A stretch of 64,000 nt of DNA from an uncultured Lachnospiraceae bacterium (GTDB lineage Bacteria > Bacillota > Clostridia > Lachnospirales > Lachnospiraceae). Numbering within the stretch: position 1 is the first letter of the stretch; each line of letters opens with the position of its first letter. The stretch covers positions 52,950 through 116,949 of the forward strand of contig CAMXPV010000003.1 in the NCBI GenBank assembly GCA_947245585.1. Direction: 5' to 3'. Positions 10,601 through 41,468 of this stretch are shown here, piece after piece. The translations under genes and the position numbers were made by a program. The notes beneath the pieces are model-generated. The model saw nothing but the letters and a program-made list of their open reading frames with translations, was not told where the DNA came from and did not search any database.

Positions 10601-11470
10601 TTAGTTTTTCAGGAACGCAACAACACCATTGCTCTTTAAATTCAATACCACGTGGTCGGCTCTCACTTCCATAACTTCCACATCTGTCCATGCACCGTCA
10701 ATGTACTGTGCCGCCGCAATATTGGCGCCGTCTGTCACGCCGGGCATATAGAAATTGATCGTTGCCTCCGCGGCCGGGAACTGAACGTCTACCACATTCA
10801 ATACGATACCATCTTTATTTGCGCGGACAGAATCCACGAATGCAATTGACACCTTGGAGATGCTCGCTGTCATGTTGGTTACCTTGCCGTCCACGATCAG
10901 ATTGCCGCCCTGAGCAACAGGCGTTGCCTCCTCGATGCCCTGGGTATCTAACACCGCATTATTGTAATACTCGTCCGCAGATTTGCCTGCCGCCTCTGCA
11001 TCCTGCATCTGCGCCCCGTTCACGAAGCCCTGCGCTACCGCTTCTCCTTCCAGACGCACCGCTTCCCTGCTTGCCTCTTCCAGTGCCTTCCGCTCCGCCG
11101 CTTCCTTTTCCTTCGCCGCAGCAATCGCCGCTTTTTCCGCACTGCTTAAAGACTTGGAAGAACCTGAAGATGAAGAAGGCCTTGAAGCAGACCTGTATTC
11201 AGGGAAGTAACCCTCTTTCCACCTTATGCCATCAAAGGTATGCCACACATTACCATCACCCTTCCAAGTATCGCCTACTATCGGATGTTGGCCGTCCGGT
11301 GTATTGGATACAGAAGGTTCCTCCAATCCTATATAATGATGATTGTAACCAAAATCATGTATTTCTCCTGCTCCGCCTGTTCCATAACTCCCCGCTGCCA
11401 ATACAGTCATGCCAGACAGCATCAAACCCATCGCCATTAAAAATGCCAGATATTTTCTTATTTTCTTCAT
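10601..11470 (-). CDS. Secreted coiled-coil protein, paralog A of a family with variable N-terminus and conserved C-terminal domain
   Basis: Signal peptide MKKIRKYLAFLMAMGLMLSGMTVLAAG; Ser-rich linker, Ala/Glu-rich helix; C-terminal half closely matches the 40424-41272 product. RBS AAGGAGAG before ATG 11470; the ORF-track TTG start (11560) lies upstream of the putative promoter. Confidence 0.85.
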   Translation of the reverse strand: MKKIRKYLAFLMAMGLMLSGMTVLAAGSYGTGGAGEIHDFGYNHHYIGLEEPSVSNTPDGQHPIVGDTWKGDGNVWHTFDGIRWKEGYFPEYRSASRPSSSSGSSKSLSSAEKAAIAAAKEKEAAERKALEEASREAVRLEGEAVAQGFVNGAQMQDAEAAGKSADEYYNNAVLDTQGIEEATPVAQGGNLIVDGKVTNMTASISKVSIAFVDSVRANKDGIVLNVVDVQFPAAEATINFYMPGVTDGANIAAAQYIDGAWTDVEVMEVRADHVVLNLKSNGVVAFLKN

Positions 11471-11516
11471 GTGTTTGTCTCTCCTTCTCTTCATAAAATG
11501 TATGTTTGACTCATTC

Positions 11517-11547
11517 ATTATACCCCCCCCCGGTAAAAAAATGGCAA
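11517..11547 (-). promoter_or_regulatory. Candidate promoter with G9 spacer tract (paralog A)
   Basis: Minus strand TTGCCA-N19-TATAAT; spacer is TTTTTTTACCGGGGGGGGG (G9 at 11523-11531), directly abutting -10. Confidence 0.6.
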
Positions 11548-11569
11548 GCGCTTTTTTCAATTTTTATAA

Positions 11570-11659: not shown

Positions 11660-12064
11660 TTATTCCTTTTCTTTTTTGGCAAAGGCTGTCATGGCAAGAC
11701 AGGACAAGCCTATTCCAAGCATTCCAAATCCGGAATTTACATCCAATTCTTTCAAAACGGAAAGAACAACTACACCGACACCCATAGCAAGCGCAACTGC
11801 CTTCATAATCATGTGAATCATCGGCGTGATATCTTTCTTTCCACCATCCAAAGACGCGGCCTTAACCTGCATCAACTCATCCACACTGATTCCAAACACT
11901 TCTGCAAGCTTCGGAATGGTATTCACGTCCGGACAGGAGAGATCTCTTTCCCACTTGGAAACCGCCTTATCAGTTACACCCATTTTTTCAGCCAATTCCA
12001 ACTGTGTCAGTCCTTGTTCTTTCCTTAATGATGCAATCATTATGCCAAGAGTTTTCTTTTCCAT
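11660..12064 (-). CDS. XRE-family HTH regulator with C-terminal TM segments
   Basis: IASLRKEQGLTQLELAEKMGVTDKAVSKWERDLSCPDVNTIPKLAEVFGISVDEL, then two hydrophobic segments; start re-assigned to ATG 12064. Confidence 0.85.
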   Translation of the reverse strand: MEKKTLGIMIASLRKEQGLTQLELAEKMGVTDKAVSKWERDLSCPDVNTIPKLAEVFGISVDELMQVKAASLDGGKKDITPMIHMIMKAVALAMGVGVVVLSVLKELDVNSGFGMLGIGLSCLAMTAFAKKEKE

Positions 12065-12181
12065 TGCTTCTTGACTCCTTTCATTTTTAATGACCACATC
12101 GTAACATTTCCTTCCCGATTCACTCAACCGACCGCCAGTTTAGTCCGGTAGACCTATGGTTTAGCTGTATTGAAACCAATC

Positions 12182-40423: not shown

Positions 40424-41272
40424 TTACTGCGCGATAAACGCAACGACACCGTTCCCTTTCATATTCAGGGTTACATGGTCTGCTCTTACTTCCGCTACCT
40501 CTACGTCAACCCATGTGCCTGCATTGTACTGCAGGGCAATGATGCTCTCTTCCCCTGTGATGCCGGGTGTATAGAAGTTGATCGTCGCCTCCACTGCGGG
40601 ATAACTCACTTCAACCACATTCAAAACCGTTCCCTCCTGCTCGATGCGGACGGAATCCACATAAGCGCGGTTGGTCACCTTGCTGATAGACGCAGACATA
40701 TTGGTCACCTGTCCGTCTACAACAAGATTACCGCCCTGTCCTACGGTCATCGCATTCTCAATGCCGGGAGTGCTCACAACTGCATTATTGTAAAACTCGC
40801 CTGCGGACATATTTTTCTCTGCTGCTCTGTACATATCGCCTACATCGGCAAAACCTTCATCCATCGCTGCGCCCACCAGACGGACTGCCTCTGCGCTCGC
40901 CTGCTCCTGTATCAGGCGCTCTTTCGTAGCTTCTGCTTCCGCTCTTGCCTCTGCCTCACGCTCTGCGGCGGATTTGGAGTCGGAACTACTGGAACCAGAA
41001 TCGGAACTGGAGCCGCCATAGGAATCTGTAAGCACCCACTTTCCTCCTTTATACACATACATCTTAGATTCATTCGAACTCCACCAAAAATCACCCTCCG
41101 TCATGCCGCTAGTAGGTGCGTCCGCTTGATTAAACTGCTGTGGTCCATTTGATTCCGTCTGTTGTCCTCCGTTACCACCTGTTTCTTCTTCATCCGCCGC
41201 AAACACCGACATCGCCGATACCATCAAGCCCACCGCCAACATAAACGCCAACCATTTTCTTACTGTTCTCAT
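40424..41272 (-). CDS. Secreted coiled-coil protein, paralog B
   Basis: Signal peptide MRTVRKWLAFMLAVGLMVSAMSVFAADEE; Ser-rich linker; Ala/Glu-rich helix; C-terminal domain shared with 10601-11470. Confidence 0.88.
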   Translation of the reverse strand: MRTVRKWLAFMLAVGLMVSAMSVFAADEEETGGNGGQQTESNGPQQFNQADAPTSGMTEGDFWWSSNESKMYVYKGGKWVLTDSYGGSSSDSGSSSSDSKSAAEREAEARAEAEATKERLIQEQASAEAVRLVGAAMDEGFADVGDMYRAAEKNMSAGEFYNNAVVSTPGIENAMTVGQGGNLVVDGQVTNMSASISKVTNRAYVDSVRIEQEGTVLNVVEVSYPAVEATINFYTPGITGEESIIALQYNAGTWVDVEVAEVRADHVTLNMKGNGVVAFIAQ

Positions 41273-41377: not shown

Positions 41378-41406
41378 ATTATACAGTAGACATAACGCTT
41401 TTGCAA
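41378..41406 (-). promoter_or_regulatory. Canonical promoter of paralog B
   Basis: Minus strand TTGCAA-N17-TATAAT. Confidence 0.7.
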
Positions 41407-41440: not shown

Positions 41441-41468
41441 TGTATACCCCCCCCCGGAAATTTTTCAA
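41441..41468 (-). promoter_or_regulatory. Candidate upstream promoter with G9 spacer tract (paralog B)
   Basis: Minus strand TTGAAA-N16-TATACA; spacer ends CCGGGGGGGGG (G9 at 41447-41455); 15-mer CCGGGGGGGGGTATA identical to paralog A upstream. Confidence 0.5.

Follow-up and report, generated by a model that had tools for sequence, protein, structure and literature searches.

Poly-G tracts in the promoter spacers of surface-protein genes suggest homopolymer-based variation in a genus of Lachnospiraceae

The window considered here, by which we mean the whole stretch of 64,000 nucleotides analysed from an uncultured Lachnospiraceae bacterium, carries on its minus strand a gene for a predicted secreted protein (gene A), a regulator gene upstream of it and, further along, a paralog of gene A (paralog B). 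The features that matter for what follows are these:

10601 to 11470, minus strand: gene A, a predicted secreted protein of 289 aa with a signal peptide
11481 to 11486, minus strand: Shine-Dalgarno sequence AAGGAG for the ATG at 11470, read directly
11517 to 11522, minus strand: -10 element TATAAT (6/6), directly abutting the G9, read directly
11523 to 11531, minus strand: G9 homopolymer (C9 on the plus strand), among the 14 runs of at least nine G in the genome
11523 to 11541, minus strand: 19-bp spacer made up of TTTTTTTACC and G9, read directly; identical in locus L050, and 19 bp is the mode of the class
11542 to 11547, minus strand: -35 element TTGCCA (5/6), read directly; the same in L050, TTGCTA in L052
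11578 to 11594, minus strand: terminator-like hairpin and T-run at the end of the XRE gene, L050 having a comparable hairpin in this position
11660 to 12067, minus strand: upstream XRE (HTH_3) regulator, a separate unit, from its domain match
40424 to 41272, minus strand: paralog B, with ~50% identity to gene A, from homology
41378 to 41406, minus strand: conserved promoter of paralog B, TTGCAA-17-TATAAT (TTGAAA-17-TATAAT at the same place in L057)
41447 to 41455, minus strand: G9 upstream of paralog B, followed by TATACA; outside the spacer of the conserved promoter and absent from L057

Gene A is laid out as a signal peptide, a Ser-rich and helical region and a conserved C-terminal domain of ~130 aa. 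No Pfam family was found for it, the only hit being a sub-threshold NCBIfam match, it has no sequence relatives in the PDB, an Rfam search gave no match, and an AlphaFold2 model from an alignment of six sequences reached a pLDDT of 46. The ATG at 11470 opens a typical signal peptide, and because homologs begin at this same ATG with its AAGGAG, the TTG start at 11560 is an artefact of the ORF caller, just as an earlier note on this DNA had supposed. That note also took gene A to be transcribed on its own, and here too the reading is supported, since the hairpin and T-run (11594-11578) close the upstream XRE gene and gene A is therefore probably its own transcription unit.

Lying 46 bp upstream of the ATG, the promoter of gene A reads TTGCCA-TTTTTTTACC-GGGGGGGGG-TATAAT on the minus strand (window 11547–11517, by direct reading of the sequence). 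What had been described from the letters, namely a G9 wedged between the -35 and -10 of a secreted-protein gene, abutting a consensus -10 and giving a spacer of 19 bp (11523-11541), proved exact when the sequence was re-read. Most likely, this is a sigma-A-like promoter of the housekeeping type with a slippage-prone G9 in its spacer. Half palindromes resembling AAGCGCTTG (CcpA/LacI-type) overlap the -35 here (window 11542-11555), and also at L052, L055, L099 and L108. Paralog B has a CC-G9-TATA of its own (41447-41455), which precedes the -35 of the conserved promoter by ~40 bp; with a 17-bp spacer and the G9 upstream of the promoter, the idea that it shares gene A's promoter type was dropped.

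Could all of this be chance? A dinucleotide shuffle does not single out two G8+ runs in 64 kb as exceptional, and the length of the homopolymers in the window is therefore no proof by itself. In 400 kb of the organism's own genome, G/C runs of length 5, 6, 7, 8 and 9 number 290, 28, 1, 0 and 1, and the whole genome of 3.69 Mb holds 14 runs of 9-12, which form a second mode, far higher than the decay of homopolymers with length would give, as is typical of contingency tracts. Across 77 genomes of the genus, GGGGGGGTATAAT (G7+ before TATAAT) gives 38 matches versus 1 in the reversed control; ~37 sites have G8+ directly before TATAAT, exact G7 appears just once among the sites read, and both exact G6 (7 versus 4 in the control) and the poly-C version CCCCCCCCTATAAT (2 versus 2) are at background. 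When the tract may be followed by any TANNNT (GGGGGGGGTANNNT), 67 of the 77 genomes have a match and the control is far lower, TAAAAT being common and some of its matches being flagellin start regions. Scanning the family (397 genomes) gives 29 versus 1 reversed control, and 8 of 300 genomes in a phylum sample are positive, our own included, so that the design is concentrated in the genus and yet not confined to it. Tract lengths of the sites read are 8 (13 sites), 9 (50), 10 (50) and 11 (13). A class of promoters with poly-G spacers thus exists in the genus and, more thinly, in the family, and it resembles meningococcal porA; the genus counts against their controls bear out the earlier placing of gene A's promoter in a class like known phase-variable promoters. 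A chance juxtaposition of homopolymer and promoter can point to the ordinary result of shuffling, but against counts of 38 versus 1 and 29 versus 1, and a promoter core kept in relatives, we give it practically no credence. The viral contigs with G8+TATAAT belong mostly to unrelated organisms. The sole G7-TATAAT site (L106, G048:C26:1-120) sits at a contig edge with an upstream flank unlike that of its relatives, as in an assembly break or rearrangement.

The genes behind these promoters have a recognisable character, many of them coding for secreted proteins, lipoproteins or sensory proteins. By a simple rule, 34 of 65 non-redundant ORFs behind tract promoters start with a signal peptide, versus 43 of 253 SD-ATG ORFs (P 2e-8, the background coming from our own genome and the test set from many genomes) and 8 of 60 behind ordinary promoters (P 4e-6). 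Their products include solute-binding lipoproteins, DUF285/leucine-rich proteins and large surface proteins that match no Pfam family, together with CpsB/CapC, a chemoreceptor, a response regulator, a GntR regulator and an ABC permease. The other promoter-like tracts of our own genome stand in front of a membrane-protein gene (C40) and of the genes for a chemoreceptor (C2) and a GntR regulator (C7). One family of large secreted proteins (L089, L206, L262, L266 and L277) has its G-tract promoter flanked by an inverted repeat, CACGTAA...TTACGTG, a putative operator or hairpin. Flagellin genes in five species (L042 at G000:C56:17627 in our own genome, L205, L256, L261 and L278) have a G10 placed 4-7 nt before the start codon, where, as G10-TAAAATG or G10-CAAAATCATG, it occupies the position expected of the Shine-Dalgarno sequence and possibly makes for translational variation of flagellin.

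The spacing of the class is its most distinctive property. Among perfect promoters of the genus, TTGACA-N17-TATAAT occurs 1750 times (control 56) and TTGACA-N19-TATAAT 140 times (control 60), and a G9-G10 tract is found in 18 of those 140, versus 0 of 150 among the 17-bp matches listed (P 1e-6), with the tract not abutting TATAAT in 10 of the 18, most of which have an alternative -10, TATATA, at 17 bp. Measured from the tracts, a 19-bp spacer to the nearest -35 is seen in 29 of 69 sites (18 of 31 with a perfect TTGACA), and when related sites are collapsed 19 of 43 independent loci have a 19-bp spacer, which is the mode of the G-tract promoters. Total spacing is also less variable than when tract lengths are permuted, for sites whose non-G part is at least 8 (P 0.001-0.007), a subset picked after seeing the data, the result over all sites being not significant. 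Within the gene A family, the spacer is 17 bp in the homologs that lack a tract (L054, L056 and L057) and 19 bp in A, L050 and L052, while L055 has its G9 two bases off the -10 and a spacer of 16. From the 19-bp mode and the 17-bp tract-less homologs, 19 bp with G9-G10 therefore looks like the selected state. The proposal that 19 bp is an aberrant spacing, to be restored to 17 by the loss of about two G, is not supported: the class mode is 19 bp, and G9 with 19 bp is also kept in relatives of gene A from two other species. In six genomes the G9 stands beside the -35 and not the -10, in promoters of the form TTGACA(A/T)G9...GTATATAAT (G064:C35:4265, G065:C3:101269, G067:C6:117934, G068:C1:87502, G072:C6:84732 and G073:C25:8812), so the position of the tract within the spacer is flexible.

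How far the tracts are preserved between species can be followed at gene A itself. Its syntenic ortholog between paaK and tyrS in G060 (L050) has an identical promoter core over more than 30 bp, G9 included, followed by a diverged leader (57% over 60 bp); L052 in G009 keeps the core with 2 mismatches and again a G9; and in G045 the corresponding position beside paaK is taken by three tandem copies (L046/L075), with G11, G10 and G11. A comparison of 20 groups of related loci shows less spread in tract length within a locus than would be expected (P 0.02, with one assembly per species and one tract length from each assembly), and in the L080 group G9 is found in 4 of 4 species. Between related loci, differences of 1-4 in length do occur, for example 9/10/10/10 before GntR, 11/10/11 in the tandem copies and 7-11 in the BigS group. 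Tract length is thus partly locus-specific and conserved between species; this speaks for a set point and forms the chief argument against slippage that is free and frequent.

Coding G-tracts show that insertions or deletions within tracts do arise in our own genome, since two of its genes are frame-broken exactly at a tract: a methyltransferase gene (C26:15544; G000, L026) at a G11, and an acetyltransferase-like gene (C8:90178; G000, L020) at a G8. A third candidate, at C30:23355, was set aside, since the tract there more likely marks the junction between an ACP gene and a methyltransferase gene behind it. On viral contigs L158, L168 and L192, related phage or prophage genes have a G10, a G11 and a G13 at the same place inside the coding frame.

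From the anatomy, enrichment, spacer mode, conservation and gene class of these promoters we infer slippage at the gene A tract, a change in expression and the length that is ON, and the account we prefer runs as follows. Slipped-strand mispairing would occasionally add or remove one G at the tract; each such slip would move the -35 relative to the -10 by about one base-pair step; and with the spacing shifted, sister cells would differ in gene A transcription, in a graded and porA-like way. The 19-bp state, as the commonest and apparently selected one, is taken to be an expressed state. That gene A belongs to a recurrent sigma-A-like class with 9-10 G usually abutting the -10 in a spacer of ~19 bp, and that slippage varies its transcription, strikes us as probable, and by analogy the class suggests that these bacteria may adjust their surface proteins, or switch them on and off, by gaining or losing a G. 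There is a bolder version: poly(dG) may lean towards an A-like helix, in which each base pair adds less rise, and the best spacing could thus shift upward. On this basis surface genes across the genus might have an optimum of 19 and not 17, because the tract shortens or unwinds the spacer, with slippage tuning expression around the shifted optimum at many loci per genome, an idea we put forward only tentatively.

The chief alternative is a structural spacer that stays fixed and does not switch. Here a stiff, A-form-like G-tract would make 19 bp act like ~17, its length would stay constant, and expression would be steady or responsive to supercoiling. Such an element fits well with a class mode of 19 bp against 17 in ordinary promoters, with tract lengths conserved across species and with the presence of G-tracts but not C-tracts before TATAAT; the reduced variability of total spacing speaks for it as well, but in a post hoc subset and without significance over all sites. 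A mononucleotide run of 9-10 bp is intrinsically slippage-prone, however, related loci do differ by 1-4 in tract length, some coding genes of this genome lose their frame at G-tracts, and the targets resemble the genes usually found at contingency loci, all of which leads us to regard a constant element as rather unlikely.

Two further readings take the 19 bp differently. A MerR-family regulator that untwists the spacer would match its length at gene A, but MerR-type 19-bp spacers contain a dyad operator, whereas TTTTTTTACCGGGGGGGGG (T7ACCG9) on direct reading has none and the adjacent regulator is XRE-type, so we find it hard to believe in. The original suggestion, that 19 bp is OFF and cells that have lost two G (17 bp) are ON, has behind it the fact that 17 bp is the ordinary optimum here (1750 versus 140 perfect promoters), and Treponema pallidum tp0126 is reported to work best at 17 (PMC7864442). 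It would need most loci in most species to have been sampled OFF at one and the same spacing, and the 2-G-loss state is hardly ever seen, since just 1 of the G7+ TATAAT sites that were read has a G7 tract; we consider it quite improbable.

If slippage does vary these promoters, Lachnospiraceae surface proteins, chemoreceptors, capsule regulators and transporters could differ from cell to cell through a kind of variation that is easily lost in short-read assemblies. What is known of promoter phase variation in gut Firmicutes comes mainly from invertible DNA, and a search of the literature, covering mostly openly accessible papers, turned up no account of promoters varying by poly-G in Lachnospiraceae. 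With the 19-bp mode it also becomes directly testable whether the composition of a spacer shifts the optimal distance between -35 and -10.

Among known systems, the contingency loci of Campylobacter and Helicobacter, with ~8-12 G in surface and glycan genes, are alike in that our own genome has coding G-tracts too, but those loci act mostly by frameshift and the main class here sits at promoters. Bordetella fim has a poly-C at an activator-dependent promoter (BvgA), unlike the present genus, in which poly-C before TATAAT is at background. The fim homopolymer is cited as acting on promoter spacing (PMC3899988). The precedent is porA of Neisseria meningitidis, which likewise has a poly-G of 9-11 between the -35 and -10 of a surface-protein gene (PMC3639595; PMC3899988). 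There, surface expression is high with 11G, 2-fold lower with 10G and 13-fold lower with 9G (PMC3639595), and one-G steps thus change expression (PMC3639595; PMC3899988). Gene A follows the porA type in having its homopolymer between -35 and -10, recognisable hexamers kept in relatives and a secreted or surface product (a predicted signal peptide in gene A and its homologs, and class-wide enrichment), and departs from it in a feature that is typical but not defining, a spacer distribution centred near the 17-bp optimum, the mode here being 19 bp. Also unlike porA, the design belongs to a Gram-positive commensal clade, usually has the tract abutting the -10, is common to many loci and species and is a candidate switch. 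The ompW-like tp0126 of Treponema pallidum similarly has a poly-G between its -35 and -10, with an optimum of 17 bp (PMC7864442), and set against that optimum a mode of 19 bp would, if confirmed, be new.
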